Shown in pieces: positions 1 to 38,757 of a stretch of DNA of 57,648 nucleotides (the first letter of the stretch is position 1; each line of letters opens with the position of its first letter). The stretch is taken from assembly GCA_022824225.1 (NCBI GenBank), contig JAJEAH010000044.1, positions 1 through 57,648 of the forward strand, written 5' to 3'. Position numbers and translations under genes: made by a program. The notes under the pieces were generated by a model, which did not search any database, was not told where the DNA came from, and was given only the letters and a program-made list of their open reading frames with translations. This stretch comes from Chloroflexota bacterium (GTDB taxonomy: Bacteria; Chloroflexota; UBA11872; VXOZ01).

Positions 1-648
1 CGCCCTGATGGTGGCGGCGAGAGCGAACATGACGCCGGTGGGGACCGCTATGAACGAGAGGACATGGTGCGGGCCGAAGTAGCTGGTGACGATGGGGCCG
101 AGGGTGATGCGCCAATAGGCGTCGTGCAGGGCTCCTTGCCGGCGGAGGATTCCCATGAGTGTGCCCAGGACGCCCGCGCCAATGACCACCGGCAGGAGGT
201 TGAAGATGACGGCAACCACGGTAAGGATCACGCCGAGCAGCACTGCCGGTCCCAGGTTGGCCTCCGAGTTGCGGATGGTGAGGAACGCGACGACGATGAC
301 AATCAAGATGATGAGGGCGGCGGCGACCTCGATTATGGGCACCGTGCGCAGGCGCTCCATGAAGCCGGAGAGTATGGCCAACGGCGCGAGCACGATGGCA
401 AAGAGAAGGGCCCCGGCCATCAGGGCCACCATGAGCGAATTGAGAATCGGCCAAAGCGCGACGGCAAGCGCGATGGGCACGATGAATGCCAGGGGCGCAA
501 GCGCGCCGGCAATCGCCCCGGAGAGAAGTGTGGCGCGAACGCTCGCCACCATCACCAAGGCGTCCGACACCGTGGCGGAGATGATCTCCCGGCGGGAGAG
601 GTGGCGCATGTCGTCGGAGAAGCGGTCGGAGTCGAACTGCTGTCCCAT
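1..648 (-). CDS. Polytopic membrane protein, 3' end cut by the window
   Basis: The minus strand stays open from an ATG at 648 to the first base of the window (216 codons, no stop), so the C-terminus lies outside. The product starts with about 20 polar residues (MGQQFDSDRF) and then has long hydrophobic stretches at about residues 35-60, 62-95, 104-122, 133-160 and 195-216, so it is an integral membrane protein. A good Shine-Dalgarno (GAGGTGAGGAG) lies just upstream of the ATG. The first membrane segment, around LLSGAIAGALAPLAF, resembles LIAGFIAGASVFAGLF in the next gene (992-1864), so the two look like paralogues. I do not recognise a named family and assign no function. Plus-strand reading frames over this stretch are antisense shadows. 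Confidence 0.7.
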   Translation of the reverse strand, partial: MGQQFDSDRFSDDMRHLSRREIISATVSDALVMVASVRATLLSGAIAGALAPLAFIVPIALAVALWPILNSLMVALMAGALLFAIVLAPLAILSGFMERLRTVPIIEVAAALIILIVIVVAFLTIRNSEANLGPAVLLGVILTVVAVIFNLLPVVIGAGVLGTLMGILRRQGALHDAYWRITLGPIVTSYFGPHHVLSFIAVPTGVMFALAATIRA

Positions 649-991
649 ACTCCTCACCTCAAGCTCTGTGCCGGGCCGCAAATGCGCGGGTGCGGCACTT
701 TGACGGCCAACACACTCCGGGCGAACGCGCGCGCTGCACACGGCGTGTCGGTTCGGGCCTGACGCCGGCCAGGGCGCTCACAAGCGACTGGCGCCGTCCG
801 CCGCGCTTGTGGCGCCTCCCGAATGTCATTCCGAGCGGAGCGAGGAATCTCGTCGCGCGCCGCACGCGAGTTACCCACTTCGCCCTACCCAGTGCGCAGA
901 CCGCGTAACGCCGCTTGATACGTGCACGAGATGGATACATCCCCCGCGCACCGGGCGCAACGGCGGTGCAGGTCCGGGCCCCCCGCCAACG
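649..991. other. Intergenic gap with one REP-like element
   Basis: There is no convincing gene between the start of the first membrane gene and the end of the second. The only recognisable structure is the REP-like element at 825-855. The short reading frames here have no Shine-Dalgarno and no protein-like composition. Confidence 0.5.
825..855 (+). repeat. REP-like dispersed repeat, family A
   Basis: The stretch begins GTCATTCCGAGCGGAGCGAG and continues into GAATCTCGTCG. Sequences of this type (GTCATTC...GAGC..AGCGA.GAATCT) are scattered between genes in many bacterial genomes. A second, more divergent copy lies on the other strand at 26750-26782, and a weak partial match is seen near 56222-56258. 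All three are intergenic. Confidence 0.6.
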
Positions 992-1864
992 TCAGATTAC
1001 GAGCGAACGCTCCCTGGCCGCCGTATACTCATCCCAGAATTCATCCTGCAAGTCCCACGACAGCGTTTCAACGCTAACCTCCCGGATGCCGACGATGCGG
1101 CGGGCGACCTGGCGGGCGCGTTTTATCTGCTCAGGCGTGCGGAACCAGCCCTGGATCTGCGCGGAGCGTCCGTCTTCGCTCACGGCAAGGTCGGCGAAAA
1201 TGCAGCCGAAGAGGTCGCTGTCATTGTGGAGAACGTACGAGAGGCTGAGTGTGCGCCGGAACCAGATGGCCGACCCAACCCACGAACGGAGCATGCCTTC
1301 GAAGAGGCTATTCCAGTATTGGTCGTACACCAGGCCCGAGAGCAGCCAAATCGGCAGCAAATAGAGCACCATGATGGGAAACTCTTTCCAGAAGGCCAGG
1401 CCGAGAAAGAGCAGCGGCACGCCGATGAGGCTGAGGAGCAATCCCGGTAACGTGTCCCAGGGCGTATGCAGCGGCATGGGCAGCAGCCGGCGCTCCACGG
1501 CCCGCAAGTTGAGCCGCGCTTTCACCATGCCCAAGGCACCGCTGATGATGAGGGCCGGCCACAATGCCATGAGGATCGAGACCCAGCCGAACGTGTGGGA
1601 GAGCACGAGAGAGACGACGCCGAGCACGTTGAGGGTAAAGAGCGTGACCATGATGGGCCAGATGGCGAGGATGATCATGATCACGGCAAAGAGACCCGCA
1701 AAGACGCTGGCCCCCGCGATGAAGCCGGCAATCAACGGGATGCGCCGGTCCGCGACCAGAAGGGTGGTCTCGTGGGTCGTGCCGGTGGCCCATTCCTCCC
1801 GACGCAACGCGCGCTGGTTCGTCCACCCGTGCGGGTCCCACCACGGAAGCACTTGGCTGGCCAT
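992..1864 (-). CDS. Membrane protein with soluble C-terminal domain
   Basis: This 290-residue protein has a polar N-terminus of about 45 residues and hydrophobic segments at about 45-75, 78-112, 138-160 and 163-182. A soluble C-terminal part (about 215-290) follows. The C-terminus contains GWFRTPEQIKRARQVARRI then VGIREVSVETL, which is reminiscent of the BON-domain pattern (a glycine-led strand, a helix, then GV..V), but the match is weak. The membrane part resembles the neighbouring partial gene at 1-648. There is a Shine-Dalgarno-like GGGGGGAGAGCAGG before the ATG and a TATCAT at 1909-1914 (minus) that could be a -10 element. No function is assigned. Confidence 0.65.
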   Translation of the reverse strand: MASQVLPWWDPHGWTNQRALRREEWATGTTHETTLLVADRRIPLIAGFIAGASVFAGLFAVIMIILAIWPIMVTLFTLNVLGVVSLVLSHTFGWVSILMALWPALIISGALGMVKARLNLRAVERRLLPMPLHTPWDTLPGLLLSLIGVPLLFLGLAFWKEFPIMVLYLLPIWLLSGLVYDQYWNSLFEGMLRSWVGSAIWFRRTLSLSYVLHNDSDLFGCIFADLAVSEDGRSAQIQGWFRTPEQIKRARQVARRIVGIREVSVETLSWDLQDEFWDEYTAARERSLVI

Positions 1865-2010
1865 AGCCTGCTCTCCCCCCGTCTGACCGTCACTGCGCCT
1901 TCAAGCACATGATACTACGTTGCAGGCCAAAGAGATACTCTGGCCGCACGGCAGGCGCATCTGCGCGGGACCCTTGCCACCCTTTTCCCCGCCCGCACCT
2001 GCCACGCGGC

Positions 2011-2100
2011 GATTGCGCGCTGCGCGACGACTGCGCGCCCCGCGACGACTGCGCGCCCTGCGACGACTGCGCGCCCCGCGACGACTGCCCGCTGCGCTCC
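2011..2100. repeat. Five tandem 18-bp repeats
   Basis: Five 18-bp units run back to back. The three central ones are GACTGCGCGCCCCGCGAC with one C/T difference, and the two outer ones are degenerate. The array ends 2 bp before the stop codon of the ABC permease (gene end at 2103), in the 240-bp gap before the next gene. There are no spacers, so it is not a CRISPR. It is a simple tandem expansion that could affect read-through from the exporter operon. Confidence 0.85.
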
Positions 2101-2102
2101 GC

Positions 2103-2915
2103 TTACGTGCGACGGCGGAACATCCACGTCGCCACCGGCATGGCGACCACGATGATGCCGACGCACCACGCCAGCGCCAGCCAGCCGTTGTTGCCGATGG
2201 GGGTGCCCACCATCCAAGCGCGCATGGCTTCGATTACTTTCGTGATGGGCTGGTTCTCGGCAAAGACGCGCAGCACGATCGGCATGCTGTCCGTGGGCAC
2301 GAACGCGCTGCTGCCGAACGTCAGGGGCATCAGCACCATGAAACCGACCCATTGGGCCGCTTCCAGCGACTTCACCACCATGCCCAAAATGGCCGAAACC
2401 CAGGAGATGGCGAAGGTGAAGATGAGGAGCAGGCCGAAGACGAGCAGCCATTCGGTCCAGGTGGCCGTGGGACGAAAGCCCACGAGGAAACTCGCCGCCA
2501 GCATGATTACGGCGGAAATTGTATTGCGAACGAGATCGGCGAACACGTGTGCCGTCAACAGTGCCGAGCTTGCCATAGGCAGGGCGCGGAAGCGGTCGAC
2601 GATGCCACGCTGCAGGTCTACGAGAACGCTGATCGTCGTCGTATTCGCGCCAAAGGCCGCGGTCTGCACCAGGATGCCGGCGACCAGGAAGTTGACGTAA
2701 CTCGTCCCGCCGGTGTTGATGGCCCCGCCGAAGACATAGCGAAACAGGAGCAGGAACATGACAGGCATGAGGAATGTGGAAAGCAATTGGTCCACGTTGC
2801 GGGTGATGTGCCGGAGGCTGCGCTGGGTCAGCACCCAGGTGTTGTCGAGAGTCCAAAAGATGCCCGGTCGCACTTCGGGTTGCGCCTCGGCGCGTTGGGT
2901 GGCTAGTTGTTTCAT
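2103..2915 (-). CDS. ABC-2 type exporter permease, DrrB-like
   Basis: This 270-residue protein is the membrane subunit of an ABC exporter of the daunorubicin-resistance (DrrB/ABC-2) type. It has about six hydrophobic segments, and the family-typical region FRALPMASSALLTAHVFADL lies between the second and third. The start codon overlaps the stop of the ATPase gene by 4 bp (ATGA), so the two are translationally coupled. Together they should form a transporter extruding a hydrophobic compound or lipid. The substrate cannot be read from the sequence. The length is normal for the family. Confidence 0.85.
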   Translation of the reverse strand: MKQLATQRAEAQPEVRPGIFWTLDNTWVLTQRSLRHITRNVDQLLSTFLMPVMFLLLFRYVFGGAINTGGTSYVNFLVAGILVQTAAFGANTTTISVLVDLQRGIVDRFRALPMASSALLTAHVFADLVRNTISAVIMLAASFLVGFRPTATWTEWLLVFGLLLIFTFAISWVSAILGMVVKSLEAAQWVGFMVLMPLTFGSSAFVPTDSMPIVLRVFAENQPITKVIEAMRAWMVGTPIGNNGWLALAWCVGIIVVAMPVATWMFRRRT

Positions 2916-3940
2916 TTTGCGATGCTCTCCTGGCCGCCGGCATTTGCGCCGTTGGTTTCCGCTGTGGCCGTTGCGCCCGTGAGGGTGAGGAAGACGTCGT
3001 CCAGGGTCGGCCGGTGCAGAGACACGTTCTCAACGTCCACTCCGGCGTCCTCCAGGCGCTGCAGGACGTCCCGGAGTGTATGCACGCCCTCGTTGCTCGC
3101 GATGCTGAGCAAGCGCCGCTTGGGGTCCTGGTGCAGCGCCTGTCCCGCCAAGACGCGCTCGGCCTCGCTGAAGTTGTCGCCGTCGGCCACCACGATGTCC
3201 AGGCGTTCCGTGCCGATGCGGGCCTTGAGCTCGTCTGCCGTGCCGGCGGCGATCACGTTGCCAAGGTCAATAACGACGATCTGGTCCGCCAGTTGGTCGG
3301 CCTCTTCCATGTACTGGGTGGTGAGCAGGATCGTCACGTCACCGGCGGCGAGCCGCTTGATCATCTCCCACAGCACGAGGCGGCTGCGGGGATCGAGCCC
3401 GGTGGTGGGTTCGTCCAGGAAGATCACCGGCGGCGAGGCGATGAGGCTCATCGCCAGGTCCAGGCGGCGGCGCATCCCGCCGGAGTACGTCTTCACCCGG
3501 CGGTGGGCCGCGTCGGTGAGTTCGAACTGTTCCAACAGCTCCCGGGCGCGGCGCTTGGTGTCGGCCCTGCTCAGGCGGTAGAGCCGCCCCAACATGAGCA
3601 GGTTCTCTTCACCCGTCAAGTATTCATCCACCGCGGCGTACTGGCCGGTGAGCCCAATGCTCTTGCGCACCTCGTCGGCGTCGCGCTGCACGTCGTGGCC
3701 GTTGATGAAGGCTTGGCCGCCGTCCGGCGGCAACAGCGTGCTCAATATGCGAATGATGGTCGTCTTGCCGGCGCCGTTCGGCCCTAGCAACGCCAGGATG
3801 TCCCCCCGCCCAACAGAGAAGCTAACGCCCTTCAAGACTTCGAGGGCTTTGAATGATTTTCTCAACTCCGATACGACGATTGCGTTGTCTTTCGTGTCGG
3901 AAGCAGGCGCCGCGGTCGGTGCGGCAGCAGTCTCGGTCAT
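2912..3940 (-). CDS. ABC exporter ATPase, DrrA-like
   Basis: This 342-residue protein is a nucleotide-binding subunit. It has Walker A GPNGAGKTT at about residues 53-61, the signature YSGGMRRRLDLAMSL near 150 and Walker B VIFLDEPTTGLD about 20 residues later, followed by a DrrA-type C-terminal extension ending in HRPTLDDVFLTLTG. Shine-Dalgarno AAGGAGATGCC precedes the ATG. It is the first gene of a two-gene operon with the permease. The substrate is unknown; drug or lipid export is the family norm. Confidence 0.9.
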   Translation of the reverse strand: MTETAAAPTAAPASDTKDNAIVVSELRKSFKALEVLKGVSFSVGRGDILALLGPNGAGKTTIIRILSTLLPPDGGQAFINGHDVQRDADEVRKSIGLTGQYAAVDEYLTGEENLLMLGRLYRLSRADTKRRARELLEQFELTDAAHRRVKTYSGGMRRRLDLAMSLIASPPVIFLDEPTTGLDPRSRLVLWEMIKRLAAGDVTILLTTQYMEEADQLADQIVVIDLGNVIAAGTADELKARIGTERLDIVVADGDNFSEAERVLAGQALHQDPKRRLLSIASNEGVHTLRDVLQRLEDAGVDVENVSLHRPTLDDVFLTLTGATATAETNGANAGGQESIAK

Positions 3941-4151
3941 GGCATCTCCTTAGGGTAGACTTCTGGGAGGCGAAAGGTACGGTTACAAGAATGCATGTGG
4001 GCCGGGCAAGCGCAACGTCCCCGGCCTGGAAGGCGCGGCGAATACTGCGAGCGTGCGGGCGGTGATCGAAAAGCTGGACGCGGGGCAAGGCCGCGACCCA
4101 CAGCGCACGTGTGAGGACACAAGACAACTGCTGGGTTAGGGGACGCTGGGC

Positions 4152-4712
4152 CTAAGCCTTTTCCGTCAATTCCTTCACGTAGCCAAAGGTCTTGTTCGCG
4201 GTTGTCATCTTCACCAAGTTGCTCAAGCGTTTCGTGAACTCCGCCGGGCGGCTGCGCGCTGCGGCCACGAATGCTACGCGGATGCGCCGGTAGTCTTCCG
4301 AAAAGTCCTGGAAGTTCCGCCAGGTTTGCGGGTCTGCTTGCAGGGCGGCGGCAATATCGGGCGGCAGTGTGAACGGTTCCTCTAGGTCTACGCCCTCTGC
4401 GGCGGCAAGTCCCGCCGGTGTCATCTTGCCGGCGGCGATCAAGTTGCGCAGGCGCACTTTGTTGGCTTCCGACCAGTTGCTCTTGGGCTTGCGCGGTGAA
4501 AAGCGCTGGGCGAACCGTTCGTCGTCGATGCCCTTCTGCTGGCTGTCTATCCAGCCGAAGCACAGCGCTTCTTCCACGGCGGCGTTGTACGAGACCCGCG
4601 GCTTGCCGGTGGCCTTGCGGTAGTAGACGAGCCAGACTTCCTGCGCGTCGGCGTGGTGCGCCGCCAACCAGGCCCGCCATTCTACTCTATTCTTGGCGTA
4701 AAAGGTGTCCAT
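4152..4712 (-). CDS. YdeI/OmpD-associated family protein
   Basis: The product, read from the ATG at 4712, is 186 residues: MDTFYAKNRVEWRAWL, then VWLVYYRKATGK and VEEALCFGWIDSQ. These are hallmarks of the bacterial YdeI/OmpD-associated family, whose biochemical role is not established. An upstream in-frame ATG at 4835 would add 41 low-complexity residues that do not match the family, so I use the internal start. It stands alone, about 160 bp downstream of the pepP-efp-bccp operon. Confidence 0.75.
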   Translation of the reverse strand: MDTFYAKNRVEWRAWLAAHHADAQEVWLVYYRKATGKPRVSYNAAVEEALCFGWIDSQQKGIDDERFAQRFSPRKPKSNWSEANKVRLRNLIAAGKMTPAGLAAAEGVDLEEPFTLPPDIAAALQADPQTWRNFQDFSEDYRRIRVAFVAAARSRPAEFTKRLSNLVKMTTANKTFGYVKELTEKA

Positions 4713-4869
4713 AGGTCGATCTACTTCTGCTGGAAGTCTTGATGCGGCAGGTGAACGTGACGGGCATGCGGGCAGAGCGCCGCCGCGAGGGCAGAGGCGG
4801 GCGCCGCAGCGCGTAGTTGGCGTGTCCAGGCGCATGCGCCCAACGCTTGAGGGTCCGCGTCCGTGCGCG

Positions 4870-5385
4870 CTATTCCACGTCGTCTACCGGCGGCTCCGGA
4901 TCGGGCTCGATCAAGGCGAGGGGCTGGCCGTACTCTACTGGCTGCCGTGATTCCACCAGGAAGCGCTCCAGCGTGCCGGCGTAGGGCGCTTGGACTTCAT
5001 TGAGCACGTTCAGCACCTCGATGTAGCCCAGCAACTGCCCTTCTTGCACCTCTGCGCCTTCTTCCACCACGGCGCGCTGATTCGGGCCGCGGCCGCGCGA
5101 AAAAATCCCCACCCGGCCGGCCAACACGGTGTGCGTCTCCGGCTCTTCGGTTGGGGTTGCCGGTTCGGCGGGCGCTGGCGCCGACAGCGCCCGCGCGACC
5201 GCCGGGACAGACTCGGCGGAGCGCTTGATCGTCACCCGCACTTTGCCCTGTTCCAGTGAAATCTCTTCCACATCAGATTCCTCGATGAGGTCCAGCAGCG
5301 GTTGCAGGCGCTCTTGCACAATCTCGGAGAACGCGGGCGGGCACTCGGCGGATTGATCCCGGTCATGGAAAAACGATTTGCTCAT
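4870..5385 (-). CDS. BCCP-like protein lacking the biotin lysine
   Basis: This 171-residue protein has the layout of acetyl-CoA carboxylase biotin carboxyl carrier protein (AccB). An N-terminal helix with EISLEQGKVRVTIKR is followed by a Pro/Ala linker (about 60-85) and a C-terminal biotinyl domain with VVEEGAEVQEGQLLGYIEV and AGTLERFLV. The biotinylation motif, normally E-A-M-K-L/M-x-N-E, reads E123-V-L-N126-V-L-N-E, so Asn replaces the lysine that carries biotin. It follows efp with a 4-bp ATGA overlap, the usual pepP-efp-accB order, but no accC follows. It cannot carry biotin by the known chemistry. By analogy with plant BADC proteins, which also lack the lysine, it may be a structural or regulatory partner of the carboxylase (inference). 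Confidence 0.8.
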   Translation of the reverse strand: MSKSFFHDRDQSAECPPAFSEIVQERLQPLLDLIEESDVEEISLEQGKVRVTIKRSAESVPAVARALSAPAPAEPATPTEEPETHTVLAGRVGIFSRGRGPNQRAVVEEGAEVQEGQLLGYIEVLNVLNEVQAPYAGTLERFLVESRQPVEYGQPLALIEPDPEPPVDDVE

Positions 5386-5948
5386 GATGCACGTACTCGC
5401 TCCACGTAGCCGCTCGTGCGTGTATCCACGCGGATGGTGTCGCCATTGCTGATGAACAGCGGGACGTTTACGACGAGTCCGGTCTCCACCGTGGCCGGCT
5501 TCGTGCCGCCGGCGGCGGTATCGCCTTTGAAACCGGGCGCCGTTTCGGTGACTTCTAATTCAATCGAAGGCGGCAGCGCAACATCGAGCACGCGCTCTTC
5601 GTGCATTTCCAATTCCACCGTGGCGCCGTCCTTGAGAAAATTCACGGCATTGCCCAAGAGACTGCCGTCCACCAAGACCTCGTCATACGATTCCGTATCC
5701 ATGAAATGGTACACGTCGCCGTCGCTATAGAGGTACTGGGCCGGGCGCTGTTCCAGCCGGATGCGCGGGAAGCGCGCCCCGGCGTCGCACGTGCGATCGA
5801 TGATATGTCCGTCTTGCACGTGCCGGAGCTTGAGTCGAACCACAGCGCCGCCGCGCCCCATCTTGATGTGCTTTACGTCTTCCAAGCGAAAGATGGCGTT
5901 TTCATACTCGATGACGACGCCGCGTCGCAAGTTGCCGGTTTCGATCAA
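5382..5948 (-). CDS. efp: Translation elongation factor P
   Basis: This 188-residue protein has the three-domain EF-P fold, with YLYSDGDVYHFMDTESYDE in the middle and the C-terminal signature KGDTAAGGTKPATVETG...VPLFI.NGD.I.VDTR. EF-P relieves ribosome stalling at polyproline. The loop that inserts into the peptidyl-transferase centre reads K-M-G-R32-G-G-A, so the tip residue is Arg rather than the usual modified Lys of E. coli-type EF-P. The start is TTG at 5948, with Shine-Dalgarno GGGGAGG nine to ten bases upstream. It sits between the Xaa-Pro peptidase (37 bp upstream) and the BCCP-like gene (4-bp overlap). Confidence 0.95.
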   Translation of the reverse strand: MIETGNLRRGVVIEYENAIFRLEDVKHIKMGRGGAVVRLKLRHVQDGHIIDRTCDAGARFPRIRLEQRPAQYLYSDGDVYHFMDTESYDEVLVDGSLLGNAVNFLKDGATVELEMHEERVLDVALPPSIELEVTETAPGFKGDTAAGGTKPATVETGLVVNVPLFISNGDTIRVDTRTSGYVERVRAS

Positions 5949-5985
5949 TGCGTGTTGCCTCCCCGTAGTCTCGATGCGTTTAGGT

Positions 5986-7080
5986 TTAGGTTTGGAATCG
6001 CAGTTTGGGCGAGCCGGTCAAGACTTCGGCGCCGTCCGTATGCAGGAGCACCAAGTCTTCGATGCGGACGCCCCCGACGCCCGGCACGTAGATACCGGGT
6101 TCGATAGATACGACGGCGCCGGCGGGCAAGGGCGTGTCACCGGCCAGGGGCGAAAGGCGCGGCGCTTCGTGGATTTCCAGGCCCACGCCATGGCCGAGCC
6201 CGTGGCCGAAGTGGTCGGCGTGTCCGGCTGCCGCGATGACGTCCCGCGCGCAGGCGTCAGCCTCCACCCCGGTCATACCCGCGCGGACCTGTTCCTCCGC
6301 CGCCTCTTGCGCGCGCAGGACAATCCGGTAGATTTCCTGCATTTCCGGCGAGGGTGTGCCCAGGGCCACGGTCCGTGTCATGTCTGAGCAGTAGCCGTCG
6401 GCGATGCAGCCGAAGTCCATGACGATGAACGTGTCGGCGGGGATGACGTCGTTTCCGGGCCGATGGTGGGGCATCGCGCCGTTGGGCCCGGCGGCGATGA
6501 TGGAGGGAAACGACAGCCCCTCCGCGCCGCCTTCCCGCATCAGGACTTCCAAGCGCCAGGCCGCGGCCTTTTCCGTCACGCCGGGGCGCAGCCACGCCAA
6601 TAGTTCGGCAAGCGCGTCGTCGGCGATGGCGATGGCCTTGCGCAGCGCCGCTATTTCGTCAGGTTCCTTGGCCACCCGGAGGTCCTCGATTGCCCTCTGG
6701 CACTCGATAAGTTCAACGTGGCCGGCCAGTGCCTCGCGATACGACCCGTAGGCGGCAACGCTGACGTGGTCGGACTCGAATGCGAGCCGCTCGTAGCCGT
6801 GCTGTTGGCTGAGTTCCAAGAGCAGCGGCGGTACGGGCCCGGTTTGCGGCACCACCGTGAAGTCCGGCGCTTGCTTGCCTGCTTGCTCCGTGTAGCGCGA
6901 GTCGGTGATGAGGAGGGCGTCGGCGGCGCTAAGCAGAAGCCAACCGGAACTGCCGGTAAAGCCGGAGAGATAGCGGCGGTTGTAGTCGTTACTGACGAGC
7001 AGCGCTTCCGCTTCGGAATCCTGTAGCCAGCGGCGCGCTTTGTGTATGCGTGTAGCAGTCGAAGATTCCGCGGTGCTCAT
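5986..7080 (-). CDS. Xaa-Pro aminopeptidase, M24 family
   Basis: This 364-residue protein has an N-terminal creatinase-like domain (NDYNRRYLSGFTGSSGWLLL) and a C-terminal pita-bread metallopeptidase domain. The expected metal ligands are visible: Asp in VMDFG, Asp in YCSDMTRT, His in GHGLGHGVGLEIHE, Glu in SIEPGIYV and Glu in VRIEDLV. It removes N-terminal residues that precede proline. It is the first gene of the pepP-efp-bccp operon, an order also known in Firmicutes and suggestive of a shared link to proline-rich proteins. A TACAAT hexamer lies 42 bp upstream. Confidence 0.92.
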   Translation of the reverse strand: MSTAESSTATRIHKARRWLQDSEAEALLVSNDYNRRYLSGFTGSSGWLLLSAADALLITDSRYTEQAGKQAPDFTVVPQTGPVPPLLLELSQQHGYERLAFESDHVSVAAYGSYREALAGHVELIECQRAIEDLRVAKEPDEIAALRKAIAIADDALAELLAWLRPGVTEKAAAWRLEVLMREGGAEGLSFPSIIAAGPNGAMPHHRPGNDVIPADTFIVMDFGCIADGYCSDMTRTVALGTPSPEMQEIYRIVLRAQEAAEEQVRAGMTGVEADACARDVIAAAGHADHFGHGLGHGVGLEIHEAPRLSPLAGDTPLPAGAVVSIEPGIYVPGVGGVRIEDLVLLHTDGAEVLTGSPKLRFQT

Positions 7081-27231: not shown

Positions 27232-28050
27232 TCAGGCAAGGGCTCTGCGCCTGAATAAGGCTACCACCGCGAATATCCCGCTTGCTACCAGGGTCATAGC
27301 GGGAGCGGCGGGCACATTGAAGTGGTAGGAGACGTAGAGGCCTGTCACGGCGGAAGCGGTCCCCAACGCCGCGGCCAGCAGCATCATCGAGACAAAACGC
27401 CTGACCAGCAGATACGCCGCGGCAGCGGGAGTTACCAGCATTGCCATGACTAGGACAATCCCCGCCGCCTGAATCCCGATGACGATAACGAGGGCAAGCA
27501 TGACCAGGAACACGTAGTCGACGAAGTTGGAGCGCGAACCGACAACCTGCGATCCCACGGGGTCAAAGCTCGCGAACATCAGCCAGTGGTGCAGCGTGAA
27601 GAGCCCCAGGATGACAACCACGGTTATTCCAAGGGACACGTAGATGTCGGTCGGAGATATGGCCAAGACCTTACCCAGGAGCAGGTCTTCCATATTGACC
27701 CTGATGGTCGTCGCACTTGCCAGCATCACAAGTCCCAGGGCAAACATGGCGGCAAAGAGAATGCCTATGGAAGTATCCGTGCTGAGGCCTGCGCGCCGGC
27801 TCACCGTTCTAACCAGTACGGCAACGGCCACCCCAGTTGGAATCGCGGCAATGGCCGGGTTGATGCCGACTATGAAGCCAAGCACCATTCCCGGCAGCAC
27901 CGCGTGGGCGAGCGCGTCCCCAATGAAGGCGAGATTCCGGGTGACGACGTACGCGCCAACCAGCGGGCACATCACGCCCACAAGTATCGAGCCGATGAGG
28001 GCTCGCACCATGAAGCCGTACTCAAGCGGGGCGACAAGAAAGTCAATCAC
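27232..28050 (-). CDS. Zinc ABC transporter permease (ZnuB/AztB-like)
   Basis: This 272-residue polytopic protein is the membrane subunit of an ABC-3 metal importer. Family motifs are MCPLVGAYVVTRNLAFIGDALAHAVLPG near the N-terminus and ALVIVIGIQAAGIVLVMAML in the second half. It lies 15 bp after the ATPase gene and is the last gene of the operon. With the ATPase and the binding protein it forms a complete zinc (or manganese) importer. Zinc is favoured by the AztD-like domain upstream. Confidence 0.9.
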   Translation of the reverse strand: MIDFLVAPLEYGFMVRALIGSILVGVMCPLVGAYVVTRNLAFIGDALAHAVLPGMVLGFIVGINPAIAAIPTGVAVAVLVRTVSRRAGLSTDTSIGILFAAMFALGLVMLASATTIRVNMEDLLLGKVLAISPTDIYVSLGITVVVILGLFTLHHWLMFASFDPVGSQVVGSRSNFVDYVFLVMLALVIVIGIQAAGIVLVMAMLVTPAAAAYLLVRRFVSMMLLAAALGTASAVTGLYVSYHFNVPAAPAMTLVASGIFAVVALFRRRALA

Positions 28051-28065
28051 GTTTTCCGTCCACGG

Positions 28066-28815
28066 CTACCCATCCACGTTGAGGCGTAAACCGTGGGCGC
28101 CATACAGCTTCTCCATGACTTGGGACGTAAAGACCAGGTCGGGAGGGCCGCAGGCGCACACCTCGCAGTTCAGGCACAATACCTCGTCGAACCGGCCGGC
28201 CAGGTTGGTCACGTCGTGGGTCGCCAGCATGACGATGCAGCCCTCATCCCGCAGCGATTGGAGGACTTCGACGAGGCCCTCTTGGGCGCCGACGTCGACG
28301 CCGCTGAAGGCCTCATCCAAGAGCAGGACACTCGCCTCTTGGGCCAGAGCCCTGGCGACGAACACCCGTTGCCTCTGTCCTCCCGAAAGCTCCGTCATGA
28401 GCGCAGCGCGCAGATCCCACAGGCCCACACGGCAAATGCATGCCTTGACCAGTTCTCGATCTCTCTTGCCAGGTCGTTGAAACCATTTGAGTCTACAGCG
28501 CCGGCCCATCATTACAACGTCCGTCACGGTCACGGGAAACCGCCAGTTGACGCTCTCCCGCTGCGGCACGTACGCCAAGGCCCCGCCGCCCTGGTCTACT
28601 CGGTGAAGGGTTACCTCCCCTTGGCGAACCGGGAGGAGACCGGCAATAGCATTGAACAGGGTGCTCTTGCCGGCTCCATTCGGTCCAACAACGCCCATGA
28701 GGGTCCCCGCATCCACGTCGAAGGTGACGTCGTTCAGGGCCATGTGCCCATCAAGTTCGACCGTCACGTTTCGAAGCGATACGCTCGCTCTTTGGGCGTT
28801 CGGGGCTGAAGTCAC
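28066..28815 (-). CDS. Zinc ABC transporter ATPase (ZnuC/AztA-like)
   Basis: This 249-residue ATPase has Walker A GPNGAGKST, signature LSGGQRQRVFVARAL and Walker B VLLLDEAFSGVD. Its ATG overlaps the stop of the binding-protein gene by 4 bp. Near the C-terminus the usual L-L-N-R-x-x-x-A-x-G stretch has become LCLNCEVCACGPP, four cysteines in a CxxCxxCxC arrangement. This is unusual for the subunit and could bind metal (inference). The remainder is typical of importers for divalent metals. Confidence 0.92.
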   Translation of the reverse strand: MTSAPNAQRASVSLRNVTVELDGHMALNDVTFDVDAGTLMGVVGPNGAGKSTLFNAIAGLLPVRQGEVTLHRVDQGGGALAYVPQRESVNWRFPVTVTDVVMMGRRCRLKWFQRPGKRDRELVKACICRVGLWDLRAALMTELSGGQRQRVFVARALAQEASVLLLDEAFSGVDVGAQEGLVEVLQSLRDEGCIVMLATHDVTNLAGRFDEVLCLNCEVCACGPPDLVFTSQVMEKLYGAHGLRLNVDG

Positions 28816-31064
28816 TTCAGTGCCTCGACAATTCGGGTCACGTTGGCTCGCACCATGCCAAGGTACGTGTCAGCGCCGCTGCCTTCCGGCCCAAGCGATC
28901 CGGAATAGAGTTGAGCCAGCTCAGCGCCGGTCTCCCGCGCCACGGCTTGCGCCAGCCTGTCACTGACGGTCGTCTCGCCAAACAATGCCGGCACGCCGAG
29001 TTCCCGTATCACGTCGACCAGTTCCGCAATGTGCTCCGCAGAGGGCTCCACGTGGGTTGAAAGGGACGGAATGACCAGACCAACCACCTCGAACCCATAC
29101 GCCTCCGCAAAGTAGGAGAAGCTGTCGTGTGATGTAACCAGCAGCCTGCGCTCCGGCGCCACCGCGCTGACCTGATCTTGGATCCAGGCGTGTAGCTCGT
29201 CGAGCTTCTCCTCGTATTCTGCTGCATTCTGATAATAGACGCTCGCGTTGGCCGGGTCTATAGACGAAAGCCGGGCGGCTATCTCGTTGACAGCTACCTT
29301 CACGCGGATCGGATCGAACCAGAAGTGAGGATCGTACGCGCCGTGCACGTGTCCCTCATGGCCGTGTTCGTCATCGTGTCCGTTTGCCTCATGGCCATCT
29401 TCGTCTCCGTGTTCGTGGTGTTCTTCAGACTCACCCACGATTCCGACGAAGGCAATCTTGGTGGGCGTTCCCGCTACGTCCCAGTGCCGGACTTCCTCCA
29501 GGTCGTGCTCGTCTAGCTGCAGCACCTCGCCACCCACCGTGTCCGTGACGAAGATTGCGCCTGGCGCCGTGGCTAGGTGGGGGCGCGCCCAGGATCCTGT
29601 CTCCACCGGGGTCGCCAGGAAGTCGGCCTTGGAGGCCAGCAGATGCCCATCGTGAGCGTCATACACACGCAGCTCGCCGTCGCTCATGACTACCAACAGC
29701 GACTCACCGCCATGGCCAAGCTGGACCTGGATTGGGCGAAGGCTCTCTGTAGCGGCGAGGAGCAACTCCATCGTCTCCTCTTCCGGCTCCACGATGTAAA
29801 GCCCAGACGCCGAGCCCAGGGCGAAGAAGTGATCCAGGCCGTGGTAGCCCCAAACGTCTGTGACCTGGAAGTCATCAGCAACCCCGTCCGGCGCTATGAA
29901 TGCATGGGAATACTCGCCATCATGAGCCCCCAAAACCAAGACGCCCCCGAGGCATCCGAATGCGGCCTCGTGGCCGTTGCTTGTGCCTCCCTGCAGCGAG
30001 TCGCAAGCCTCAGCACTGTAGAGGACAGTGCCATCCAGTTCTCTTATTTCCGCGCCAATCGGAAGCCGAGTGTCAGCGTTGCCGGGGTAGTCCGGATGCT
30101 TGATGGTTACGGCGAACAGATCGTCCTCTAGGGGTACCGCCGCTCCTTGCTGGGGACCTGCGTCCATCCGTAGAGGAACGTAGCTGTCCCCATGCTCTTC
30201 CAGTTCATGTAGGTCGAGAAGCACCACCTCACCGGAGCCCGCGTAGAAAATCGCCGCCCAGTCGTCGCCTATATGCACGTTCACGGGGCTATCCCCGCTC
30301 AAGTCCAGGGAAAGCTGACTGGTGTCCGACTCTACCAGGTCGAAGTCGTCTCCATGCGCCTCCAAGAATATCCCGCCATCGAACACGCGAGCCGTGTTGG
30401 CATCCGTGGAGACGGCGATTGCGAAGCGGCCATTCTCGGTGGTGTAGATCAAACCGGCCCGCGAATCCAGGCTAAAGCGGTTCTGGTACGCTGCGCCGGT
30501 TTCCAGGTCTATGAGGGAAACCTTCCCTTCCTCGCCATCGCCAATGAGCAAGCGGCCTATGAGCATCTCGTCATGGTGCTCGCCTTCATGCTCGTGCTCG
30601 TCCTCGTGATCGTCATGCATTGCGACCTCGGTGAACTCGATGGGATCGACGAATTCACCAAGCGCGACTATCTTGGATTCATCCGCACTGGCGTTGTGCA
30701 AGAGATCCTCCAGCCACGCGGCCTCCAGATAGAGGCCGATAGACAACACGAGATCCGCATCCGCTACCTTGGCAATGTCGCGGGGTGTGGGTTGGAAGTG
30801 GTGCGGGTCGCCGCCCACTGGCAACAGGCTGAAGACTTCCACTCTGTTTCCACCTACCACCCGTACCCAATCAGCCACAAAGTTGGTGGTTGTCACAACC
30901 TGAATCGCCGGCAGGGCTTGCTCGGGCGCCTCCCCGACAGATGCTTGCGGACCCTGGAAGTCTGCGCAGGCAGCCAGGAAAGCCAAAACAAGTGCGACAA
31001 GACCGGCAGCTAACGTCTGCGCCAACCGCCCGAAGCGATTCCTGCGGTTAAGTATTGGGAGCAT
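28812..31064 (-). CDS. Zinc-binding lipoprotein with inserted AztD-like propeller
   Basis: This 750-residue protein is about 2.5 times the usual length of ZnuA/AztC. A lipoprotein signal ends at Cys33 (AFLAAC). Residues about 52-145 are the first half of a cluster A-I binding protein, with the metal His in DPHHFQPTP (88/89). At the His-rich loop the chain is interrupted. MHDDHEDEHEHEGEHH (149-164) leads into a beta-propeller (about 167-545) resembling the periplasmic zinc chaperone AztD (GKVSLIDLETG, FLEAHGDD, GLYIVEP). A second His-rich segment (549-575) returns to the binding-protein fold with DPHFWFDP (His580), TSHDSFSYFAEAYGF (His646) and GETTVSDRL (Glu697). All metal ligands are kept. 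First gene of the operon; Shine-Dalgarno AAGGAG. Confidence 0.88.
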   Translation of the reverse strand: MLPILNRRNRFGRLAQTLAAGLVALVLAFLAACADFQGPQASVGEAPEQALPAIQVVTTTNFVADWVRVVGGNRVEVFSLLPVGGDPHHFQPTPRDIAKVADADLVLSIGLYLEAAWLEDLLHNASADESKIVALGEFVDPIEFTEVAMHDDHEDEHEHEGEHHDEMLIGRLLIGDGEEGKVSLIDLETGAAYQNRFSLDSRAGLIYTTENGRFAIAVSTDANTARVFDGGIFLEAHGDDFDLVESDTSQLSLDLSGDSPVNVHIGDDWAAIFYAGSGEVVLLDLHELEEHGDSYVPLRMDAGPQQGAAVPLEDDLFAVTIKHPDYPGNADTRLPIGAEIRELDGTVLYSAEACDSLQGGTSNGHEAAFGCLGGVLVLGAHDGEYSHAFIAPDGVADDFQVTDVWGYHGLDHFFALGSASGLYIVEPEEETMELLLAATESLRPIQVQLGHGGESLLVVMSDGELRVYDAHDGHLLASKADFLATPVETGSWARPHLATAPGAIFVTDTVGGEVLQLDEHDLEEVRHWDVAGTPTKIAFVGIVGESEEHHEHGDEDGHEANGHDDEHGHEGHVHGAYDPHFWFDPIRVKVAVNEIAARLSSIDPANASVYYQNAAEYEEKLDELHAWIQDQVSAVAPERRLLVTSHDSFSYFAEAYGFEVVGLVIPSLSTHVEPSAEHIAELVDVIRELGVPALFGETTVSDRLAQAVARETGAELAQLYSGSLGPEGSGADTYLGMVRANVTRIVEALK

Positions 31065-35421: not shown

Positions 35422-38400
35422 TTACGGCGGCGGAATACGCAGGCGTTGGCCCACGGAAATCACGTTGGGATCTGCGATCTCATTGAGTTCCACAAGATCG
35501 GCCAGGGATACGCCAAACGCCTGAGCGATGGCGCTAAGGCTATCCCCGGACTGAACGACGTATTCCAGCGGCGCCGGTGTGGGCGTTAGCGGCGGCGCGG
35601 GCAGCGGAGTTGGCGTCGCTACGATAGCTTGCCGTATAGGCGTAGGCGCTTCGGGCGCACTCACAGTCACGTCGGCTGCGGCTCGTGCAGTTTGGCCTGC
35701 GCCATCGCCGTTCCAAATGTCTCTGGTCGCGAACGTTACGACGACTAGCGCAGCCACAGCCGCATACACGATCACACGAGAAAGACCTCGTTCGCCCCCA
35801 AGCGGGGACCTGGTCCCGGCAGGTAAGAGGGGCCACCAGTTGGCTCGTACAGAAGACGGCCACCAATTCGCGCGCCCCACCAGGGTCACGATGCCGGGCA
35901 CGAGCAGCGAACGCACAACCAGGGCATCGATGAGAATGCCCAACGCGACAGCCGCGCCCATCTGAAAGAGCATGAGCAGCGGCGATGCCGTGAGCGCGGC
36001 GAACGTGCCCGCCAGAATGATGCCCGCGGCCGTAATGATAGCGCCCGTGCGCGCCGAAGCCACCCGCACACCTTCCCGCAGGGGCAGCGTTGCGCTTTCC
36101 TCCCGGATGCGGTGCACCAGGAAGACGTTGTAATCCGCCCCCAACGCGATGAGCATGACCATCACCGTCAATGGCAGCAAATAGTACACGCCTTCGTGGC
36201 CCAAAATGCCTTGGAAGAACAACGTGGAGAGTCCAAGGCTGCTGCCGTAGGAGAACACGACAGAGCCAACGAGATACAGGGGCGCAACGAGACTGCGCAG
36301 CAACAGAGCCAGGACAGCGAATATGCCTACTACGGTAACCACGCCTACCGTTCGCAGGTCCTGGCGCACGACGCTCTGAACGTCGGCCACCTCGGCAGTG
36401 GCGCCGCTCAGGAACACCTGCGCCGCGGCCAGGGGGCCGCTGCGCTCCCGCACTAACGTGTCGCGTATGGCGTTCAAGGTCTCAATCGCCTCGGTGCTCA
36501 GAGGATCCTGCCCCAAGATGACGAACAAGCGAATTGTGGTCGCGTCCTCCGAGAGGAAGAGCGGCGAGACCGCCGCGACGGCTTCACTCACGCCGGGCAG
36601 TGCCGATGGAATGAAGAACGGATGGGGATAGGCCGCGAATTCGTCGCGCAGCGAACTCAGGGAATCCGCAATCTCGCGTAGCGCGCCGTCCAATGGGGAA
36701 TCCGCTTCCTCGACCGTGCCGCCGTCTGGAAGAAACACTGCGTCCGGTCGGTCGGCGAAGTAGCCGGCCAGCAAGTCGAGCTGCGCTGCCACCGCACCGC
36801 TAGCCGCTTGTGCTTGGGCGAGCTGAGCGGCCTGCTGCTGCGGCGTGACATCAGTCTGCGCCGGCGCGCTCTGGGCCGCTCGCTGGAGTTCCGCCAGTAG
36901 TCGGGCGGCCTCCGTAAAGGCCGGTTGCGTCTCGACCTCAGGAAAAGCTGCGGCCAATTCGGTAAGGTAGCCGCTCACCGGCGCCAGCGGAGCGGTCGGA
37001 CCGATTGTATCCGGCACACCCTCACCGCCGCGCAATTGCGCCGCCATCTGCTGGAGTTGCGTTGTCGGGTGCGCTTGAGCGCGGACTGCCGCGTTCGCCG
37101 CGGCTAGGTTTGCCATGGCATCCCAGGTCCGCGCAAACGGTGCGGTATCGGCAACGTCCGGGAAGGCCGCGGCCAATTCAGAAACGTATTGCTCGAGCAC
37201 TTCGACCTGGGCGGCGGCGCTTTCTAACCGGCGGGCGGGCGATTCATCGTCGCTTGCCTGTGGCCCCCGCAGACCTGCCGTAATCTGGTCCAACTGGGCC
37301 GGCACGGTAAAGCCAAGGCCACTAATTCCGTCGCCAACTGGATCGACTATGCTGCGGGCTTGATCCACGTTGTCTAAGGCCAAGAGCGCATCTTGCAGCG
37401 CAGCCATGGCGCGGACGTGCGCGGTGGACGTTAGGTCGGCGCTCTCAGGCAACGAAAGCAAGACAACCGCGGGAGCGAATTCGCCCTGCGGGAAGTGCTC
37501 GCCGATGACGTCGAAGCCCTGGCGCGAATCCGTCGACTTTGGCAATGACGCGACCATGGCCAGGTTTTCACGATACTGGAGCAGGCCGACATAGGGGATG
37601 GCCAGCAGGACGGTGATGAGAACCACCGGGATGAGGGGGCGCAGGGCAACGAGATTGCTGACGTTCACCCACAGAGCCGAGGGCTTCGTGTTTTCTACGT
37701 CCATGGTGCGCGGCCAGAAGAGGTGGCGACCGAACAGCGAGAGCAGGGCTGGAGTGAGGGTCAATCCGGCCAGAAGCGTAATGCCGACGGCGAGGGCCAG
37801 GCCCGGCCCCATGGTCTGCACGATGCCAAACCGGGCCATGCCGAGGGCGGAGAGCCCGACGATTGTCGTGACTGCACTGGCCGCAATGACGGCGCCGATG
37901 CGTTGTACCGAGCGCACCGCCGCTTCGAATGCAGAGTGCTTGGCCAGCTCTTCGCGAAAGCGCGATATGAAGAACAACGAATAGTCGGTGCCCGCGCCGA
38001 AAACGAGCACAACCATGTAAGAGTCGAGCAGAGACGATATCTGCCAGCCGAACTGGGCTAAGTAGCCCAGGATTCCCCGAGCAACGAGATAGGCCAGCGA
38101 AATCGTTATGAGGGGGATGAGGATCGCCAGCGGCGCGCGGTAGATGCAGAAGAGCAGGCCGATGACGAGTATGATCGTAACGATGGTAGTTCGGTCTGTG
38201 CTCTCAACCACCGACGCAATCAGGTCAGTGCTTAGTCCCGCTTCCCCGGTAACGTGAACGGCCAACCCGTCGGGCCTGCCCTGGTCGACATACTCGCGAA
38301 TAGCGATGGTGGCTTCGTCCACGGCAGGCTGAAATGCCGCAACGGTGAAGTCCACTCTGACCAGCATTGCGGTGTCGTCGGAGCTTATGAGCGTGGTCGA

Positions 38401-38757
38401 CTGCTCCGGGTGATTGAAGACGGAGACCACGTCGAGGACCGTGGCGGGGCCTGCCGGAGAGAGCAGCCAGTTGTGCACTGACTCCGCAAAGCCGCGGTCG
38501 GCGGCGGTGAGCCCGGCCTCCCGCTTGAACACCAAAAGGCCGGTGCTGGCGGCGCCGCTGCTGGAAAACTTCTCGGAATCCAATGCGCTGGCCGCATTGG
38601 ATTCCGAGGTAGATGGCAGAAAGCTAGTCTGATCGGATGAGGCGACCTCGCTAATCGAGGGCGCGGTGAGGCCGAAGACGAGCGCCAGAGCGATCCACAC
38701 CAGCAAGAGGGGGATTCGCAGCGGCACAATGATGTGCCCAAACTTACGAAACATCAA
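35422..38757 (-). CDS. MMPL-family RND transporter with C-terminal LysM
   Basis: This 1111-residue protein has the MMPL architecture: a membrane segment at the N-terminus, a large extracytoplasmic loop, a bundle of about five segments (DSYMVVLVFGAGTDYSLFFI), a second Ala/Gln-rich loop (about 470-740), and a second bundle (MVMLIALGADYNVFLVHRI). After the usual MMPL end (RANWWP, present twice in tandem) there is an extra membrane segment, a Thr/Pro-rich linker, and one LysM domain (VVQSGDSLSAIAQAFGVSLA, about 1065-1110). MMPL proteins export lipids or hydrophobic compounds. LysM binds peptidoglycan and would tether the pump to the wall. Confidence 0.88.
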   Translation of the reverse strand: MMFRKFGHIIVPLRIPLLLVWIALALVFGLTAPSISEVASSDQTSFLPSTSESNAASALDSEKFSSSGAASTGLLVFKREAGLTAADRGFAESVHNWLLSPAGPATVLDVVSVFNHPEQSTTLISSDDTAMLVRVDFTVAAFQPAVDEATIAIREYVDQGRPDGLAVHVTGEAGLSTDLIASVVESTDRTTIVTIILVIGLLFCIYRAPLAILIPLITISLAYLVARGILGYLAQFGWQISSLLDSYMVVLVFGAGTDYSLFFISRFREELAKHSAFEAAVRSVQRIGAVIAASAVTTIVGLSALGMARFGIVQTMGPGLALAVGITLLAGLTLTPALLSLFGRHLFWPRTMDVENTKPSALWVNVSNLVALRPLIPVVLITVLLAIPYVGLLQYRENLAMVASLPKSTDSRQGFDVIGEHFPQGEFAPAVVLLSLPESADLTSTAHVRAMAALQDALLALDNVDQARSIVDPVGDGISGLGFTVPAQLDQITAGLRGPQASDDESPARRLESAAAQVEVLEQYVSELAAAFPDVADTAPFARTWDAMANLAAANAAVRAQAHPTTQLQQMAAQLRGGEGVPDTIGPTAPLAPVSGYLTELAAAFPEVETQPAFTEAARLLAELQRAAQSAPAQTDVTPQQQAAQLAQAQAASGAVAAQLDLLAGYFADRPDAVFLPDGGTVEEADSPLDGALREIADSLSSLRDEFAAYPHPFFIPSALPGVSEAVAAVSPLFLSEDATTIRLFVILGQDPLSTEAIETLNAIRDTLVRERSGPLAAAQVFLSGATAEVADVQSVVRQDLRTVGVVTVVGIFAVLALLLRSLVAPLYLVGSVVFSYGSSLGLSTLFFQGILGHEGVYYLLPLTVMVMLIALGADYNVFLVHRIREESATLPLREGVRVASARTGAIITAAGIILAGTFAALTASPLLMLFQMGAAVALGILIDALVVRSLLVPGIVTLVGRANWWPSSVRANWWPLLPAGTRSPLGGERGLSRVIVYAAVAALVVVTFATRDIWNGDGAGQTARAAADVTVSAPEAPTPIRQAIVATPTPLPAPPLTPTPAPLEYVVQSGDSLSAIAQAFGVSLADLVELNEIADPNVISVGQRLRIPPP

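Follow-up and report, generated by a model that had tools for sequence, protein, structure and literature searches.

We identified a gene whose product resembles AztC and AztD combined in a single chain: a lipoprotein in which an AztD-derived beta-propeller is inserted, in frame, into the His-rich D-loop of a ZnuA/AztC-type substrate-binding protein (SBP). The gene lies in a 57,648-nucleotide stretch of a Chloroflexota contig (JAJEAH010000044.1; hereafter the window), and the same nested architecture is present in at least 39 Chloroflexota genomes. The first-pass annotation of this DNA knew of no described example, and our searches of open-access papers likewise gave no published description of a nested AztC/AztD or ZnuA-propeller protein. 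The nested protein is a variant of AztABCD and not a new system. The gene, its parts and the neighbouring transporter genes are as follows.

28812..31064, minus strand: nested gene encoding a 750-aa lipoprotein made of an SBP N-terminal part, an AztD-like propeller and an SBP C-terminal part (open reading frame and translation; Pfam, NCBIfam and PDB matches)
30966..31064, minus strand: signal peptide with lipobox LAAC and lipidated Cys33 (sequence)
30633..30905, minus strand: N-terminal part of the ZnuA/AztC domain, residues 54-144, with metal ligand His88 (profile match and alignment)
30558..30632, minus strand: linker 1, rich in His, Asp and Glu, residues 145-169, 6 His in 25 aa; first half of the D-loop (sequence; low pLDDT)
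29439..30557, minus strand: AztD-like beta-propeller, residues 170-542 (NF038015, E=5e-25; 6ck1/6cmk; fold match, TM 0.84-0.87 by target)
30339..30356, minus strand: AztD site-2 motif HGDDFD, residues 237-242, which is HGDHxD in most homologues and here has Asp for His102 (alignment to Paracoccus denitrificans AztD)
29991..30281, minus strand: span of the three site-1 positions, with Asn262, Gln306 and Gln358 in place of His124, His167 and His218 (alignment to P. denitrificans AztD)
29334..29438, minus strand: linker 2, rich in His, Asp and Glu, residues 543-577, 9 His in 35 aa; second half of the D-loop (sequence; low pLDDT)
28815..29333, minus strand: C-terminal part of the ZnuA/AztC domain, residues 578-750, with His580, His646 and Gly722 at the fourth ligand position (profile match and alignment)
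28066..28815, minus strand: ABC transporter ATPase, AztA/MntA-like (NF040873, 1.6e-55; NF053840, 8.8e-67)
27232..28050, minus strand: ABC transporter permease, AztB-like (NF040871, 1.5e-60, 205 bits against a cut-off of 280)

The reading frame of the nested gene is uninterrupted, in keeping with the single 750-residue product proposed in the first-pass annotation, and a simple pattern search found a lipobox in 34 of 37 nested homologues. The assembly is a draft of 87 contigs, and the same annotation had raised the possibility of an assembly artefact joining two genes. We rejected this explanation, which we regard as vanishingly improbable: the architecture recurs in the genomes counted above, including three records titled chromosomes (loci L008, L009 and L011); the gene and its flanks are collinear with those of L006, with 84% DNA identity over 8 kb; and omega values indicate coding constraint on the nested gene.

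The outer parts of the protein belong to an SBP. Pfam ZnuA (PF01297) matched in two stretches with a total E-value of 3.5e-86 (289 bits against a cut-off of 29); in a genome-wide search these cover profile positions 1-97 and 97-263, so that the second resumes exactly where the first ends. The best NCBIfam model for this part was AztC (NF040870) at 257 bits, below its curated cut-off of 350, with MntC of Deinococcus at 252; profile scores fail to separate zinc from manganese SBPs, and zinc is presumably the substrate of the importer. The annotated split of a ZnuA/AztC-type protein at its His-rich loop, with His-rich segments at both junctions, was borne out by these matches and by the composition of the two linkers. 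However, the accompanying claim that all four metal ligands are kept was wrong: alignment recovers the three His ligands (His88, His580 and His646), but the fourth, at the position of PsaA Asp280 and AztC Asp279, is Gly722. Gly replaces this Asp throughout a clade of ZnuA/AztC-type SBPs that includes plain proteins (L013, L014, L017 and L019) and the nested proteins L006-L012 as well as the window copy (codon at 28897-28899).

The insert (about residues 170-542) had been described as resembling AztD, and sequence profile, crystal structures and predicted fold all lead to the same identification. The AztD model NF038015 matches residues 175-540 over profile positions 2-354 of 356 (E=5e-25), and the crystallised AztDs 6ck1 and 6cmk match by sequence at 1e-18 and 6e-17. 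In an AlphaFold2 model of the window protein built with 39 homologues (mean pLDDT 85), the propeller is confidently predicted, and the first nine PDB matches are AztD chains, with TM scores of 0.84-0.87 by target. The next PDB matches are cluster A-I metal-binding proteins, of which 5i4k and 4nno align over 703 columns, across the insert, with TM scores of 0.86-0.88 by target. Both His-rich linkers have low confidence and the pTM is 0.58, so the placement of the SBP relative to the propeller is not confidently predicted. The disulfide pair Cys214-Cys231 of AztD is kept as Cys354 and Cys371, and in all rows aligned. Profile, fold and disulfide together show that the propeller is homologous to AztD. 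We call it an AztD-derived domain and not a bona fide AztD, since its NF038015 score of 88 bits lies below the curated cut-off of 400 (as do the 121-139 bits of the L085 and L009 proteins) and the site-1 ligands are missing.

The transporter genes named in the first-pass annotation are indeed present, downstream of the nested gene in the operon, and the score of each falls short of the curated threshold of its Azt model. ATPase and permease genes also lie beside the nested gene in L006, L007, L009 and L012, and beside a tandem plain copy in L008; they were not found within the fetched flanks of L010, L011, L085 and L086. In L008 (positions 320-6370, Caldilineaceae), a nested SBP gene that has no ATPase and permease of its own lies after a plain SBP, an ATPase and a permease, and the two SBPs may share one importer. 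The window genome has a second operon, whose ordinary binding protein (L001) has an uninterrupted His-rich loop.

A search for the same architecture in other genomes, as the first-pass annotation had suggested, was productive in the Chloroflexota. One scan of genome contigs gave seven further nested genes (L006-L012), and 400 genomes of the phylum gave two more (L085 and L086). In the Caldilineaceae, 11 of 46 genomes carry a nested gene, that is, ten besides L008, two of them cut by contig ends after the propeller; in the class of L009, whose record is titled Dehalococcoidia, the count is at least 22 of 294 genomes, including L009, L085 and L086. The AztD matches of 297 Actinomycetota genomes (15 with matches) and 299 Pseudomonadota genomes (11 with matches) included no nested ones. 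Without exception, the nested homologues carry the insertion in the SBP's His-rich loop, and the two linkers measure 16-70 and 18-92 aa; short linkers occur in L152 (19 and 18 residues) and L011 (17 and 29). None of the seven genomes of L006-L012 has a second AztD, the single match in each being the nested one. Two Dehalococcoidia genomes (G987 and G949) have one nested and one free AztD each, and a Caldilineaceae genome (G455) has a separate aztD gene directly before an SBP gene, presumably the older arrangement. The AztD of G412 (L093/L126) lies at a contig edge, with a free C-terminus and a truncated N-terminus.

Comparison of the SBP and propeller sequences indicates that the propeller behaves as an exchangeable cassette, gained, lost or swapped among SBPs, because the two trees disagree strongly. 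A single SBP clade, in which nested members are 75-99% identical, mixes plain proteins, window-type propellers and a second propeller type that is only 33-37% identical to the window type. L085 and L086 also carry the second type, 59-71% identical to the propellers of L007, L008, L009 and L012, on SBPs only 32-39% identical to theirs. On the SBP tree, eight changes between nested and plain states are required, all forced by well-supported branches (seven, six of them forced, on another such tree), and constraining the propellers to group by SBP clade was rejected (delta lnL 162, AU p=6.8e-6). This incongruence led us to reject a single fusion inherited vertically. The plain operon L017 shares 94-95% DNA identity with the nested operon L007 over 1.1 kb preceding the insertion site and 2.2 kb following it, and the sequence between these flanks is 36 nt long in L017 and 1227 nt in L007; given this identity, the record title of L017, Acidimicrobiia, is doubtful. 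Synonymous divergence differs between the SBP parts and the propeller of the same gene pair (0.05 versus 0.25 for L007/L012; 0.34 versus 0.08 for L106/L107), which points to recombination. The nested L007/L012 propellers are most closely related to a free AztD lipoprotein (L150/L172) whose N-terminal tract is rich in His and Asp, and recombination in the His-rich repeats, where SBP loops and free AztD N-termini share repetitive His/Asp codons, is the likely mechanism of exchange. Except for L141, an unplaced long branch, all nested propellers fall in one Chloroflexota AztD clade with a few free members, so a single ancient capture with later losses and exchanges fits as well as several captures, and the two cannot be told apart.

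In other Chloroflexota, the His-rich loop of the SBPs L020, L021 and L057 carries a different insertion, consisting of two short, apparently helical segments that flank a His-rich stretch. The loop seems to be a general site for insertions.

The degraded zinc ligands of the window propeller had been overlooked in the first-pass annotation. In the numbering of P. denitrificans AztD, site 1 consists of His124, His167 and His218, and site 2 of His99, His102, Asp104 and His408 (PMC6689063). By alignment, site 1 is lost in the window copy, with Asn, Gln and Gln at the three positions; at site 2, His99 and Asp104 are kept, His102 is replaced by Asp, and the position of His408 falls in the unalignable His-rich linker. 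The window copy is thus a poor example of an intact chaperone, because site 1 is gone and one of the tested site-2 ligands is changed. It is also exceptional among the 34 nested propellers: His99, His102 and Asp104 are all kept in 33, the window copy being the exception; all three site-1 His are present in 31; and both Cys of the disulfide pair occur in every one. The other two exceptions at site 1 are L006, a close relative of the window copy that has lost His218, and L152, which has lost two of the three. Purifying selection nevertheless acts on the window propeller: between the window and L006, omega is 0.26 for the propeller and 0.11 for the SBP parts, and propeller values in other gene pairs are 0.15-0.35.

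AztABCD of P. denitrificans and Citrobacter koseri (PMC6689063, PMC7463823) uses the same SBP, ATPase and permease families and the same D-loop, and its AztD is homologous to the nested propeller across the whole length and shares its fold and disulfide, both zinc sites being conserved in most nested homologues. However, AztD is a separate secreted polypeptide that touches AztC only transiently, whereas the window propeller is part of the SBP chain, inside the D-loop; in addition, the fourth ligand is missing from the window SBP (Asp279 to Gly), and site 1 from the propeller. The nearest fusion precedent is streptococcal AdcA (PMC7858048), likewise a single lipoprotein in which a cluster A-I zinc SBP with a His-rich loop is joined to an accessory zinc-binding domain; that domain, in contrast, is ZinT-like, unrelated to the propeller, and attached end to end at the C-terminus rather than nested in the loop. 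Plain Chloroflexota ZnuA/AztC-type lipoproteins (L013-L019 and the window genome's own paralogue L001) share SBP halves up to about 90% identical, the same operon and the same loop position, but their loops consist only of His/Asp/Glu repeats and hold no propeller. As a lead only, the C-terminal part (311-483) of TIGR03772, a 486-position model of an anchored-repeat ABC transporter SBP, matches the C-terminal half of the window protein, hinting at an SBP with extra internal sequence; no members at E<=1e-60 were present in the 81 genomes searched.

Work on AztABCD has shown that zinc passes only from site 2 of AztD, site 1 being dispensable for transfer in P. denitrificans, and that site 2, formed jointly by a hairpin and the N- and C-terminal strands, is located at the propeller termini (PMC6689063). 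The AztC D-loop and its His are required to accept zinc, and formation of the AztD-AztC complex is slow and rate-limiting (PMC6689063, PMC7463823). By analogy, the nested gene would encode the zinc-binding lipoprotein, anchored in the membrane, of an importer of AztABC/ZnuABC type. Both propeller termini are tied to the halves of the D-loop, which would hold site 2 beside the SBP cleft and make the encounter of donor and acceptor intramolecular; propeller and His-rich tethers would collect zinc and pass it to the three-His cleft, which would deliver it to the permease. We think it probable that the AztD-derived propeller serves as such a tethered zinc collector and donor, delivering to the surrounding cleft from site 2. 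For the family, direct intramolecular transfer is plausible, because the donor site at the propeller termini adjoins the cleft and is conserved in nearly all nested homologues. For the window copy, weaker transfer, buffering and decay are all possible; since site 1 is dispensable in P. denitrificans, our best guess is still that zinc is transferred, though more weakly, by a modified site 2 (His, Asp and Asp plus a linker His). Against a tethered donor, alignment places Gly at the position of AztC Asp279, which is proposed to complete transfer in P. denitrificans, and the window propeller has lost site 1 and altered site 2. Joining the D-loop ends to the propeller may also be incompatible with the docking model, in which that loop threads into the channel of the propeller. 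The low confidence in how the two domains are placed, and profile scores that do not tell zinc from manganese SBPs, count against this reading as well.

The nested propeller might instead increase the local zinc supply as a buffer or accessory collector, without ligand-to-ligand hand-over. Plain relatives with very long His/Asp loops at the same place are consistent with this, as are the His-rich loop and ZinT-like domain of AdcA, which are accessory and partly redundant (PMC7858048), and the missing and altered sites of the window copy. A mere collector, however, would have no need of site-2 geometry, and both zinc sites, above all the donor site 2, are kept in nearly all other nested propellers; we therefore consider this explanation unlikely. 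Less probable again, in our judgement, is that the propeller of the window lineage was once a chaperone and is now decaying or serving another role such as docking, with only the SBP still active in zinc uptake. Complete loss of site 1, the change of His102, the site-1 losses in L006 and L152 and an omega higher in the propeller than in the SBP parts would fit such decay. Yet that omega is still in the purifying range and like that of other pairs, His99, Asp104 and both Cys have been retained, the frame and the confident propeller model are intact, and site 1 is unnecessary for transfer in P. denitrificans (PMC6689063). Beyond the tethered-donor reading itself lies a broader proposal, to which we give slightly less than even chances: that AztD has become an interchangeable D-loop cassette in several distantly related zinc lipoproteins of Chloroflexota, where as a covalent intramolecular donor it would remove the rate-limiting AztD-AztC encounter and leave site 1 free to erode.

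Hand-over from chaperone to transporter is known mainly from mutants and from a docking model of AztD with AztC. The nested proteins are a natural covalent version of that complex, with the propeller termini fixed to the halves of the accepting loop, and they allow tests of site 2 as donor, of loop entry into the propeller channel, of the purpose of site 1 and of the speed of transfer without an encounter step. Moreover, a domain of 370 residues that is repeatedly gained, lost and exchanged within a functional loop of an otherwise well-conserved protein clearly exemplifies modular domain insertion.

Free AztD homologues also vary at the ligand positions. Many (L097, L111, L114, L116-L119 and L160-L164) have His for Asp at position 104, giving an HGHH motif, and their sequences suggest a possible second class of donor site. 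In Actinomycetota, second AztD paralogues adjoining a normal aztD (L123, L124 and L125) have lost site-1 His (Gln-Ser/Thr-Arg or His-Lys-Gly) and kept the site-2 motif, a pattern that may be compared with the site-1 loss of the window copy. Elsewhere in the window, at 35422-38757 on the minus strand, a 1111-aa MMPL-family transporter (PF03176, 6e-116) carries a terminal LysM domain (PF01476, 2.7e-16), an unusual-looking pairing.
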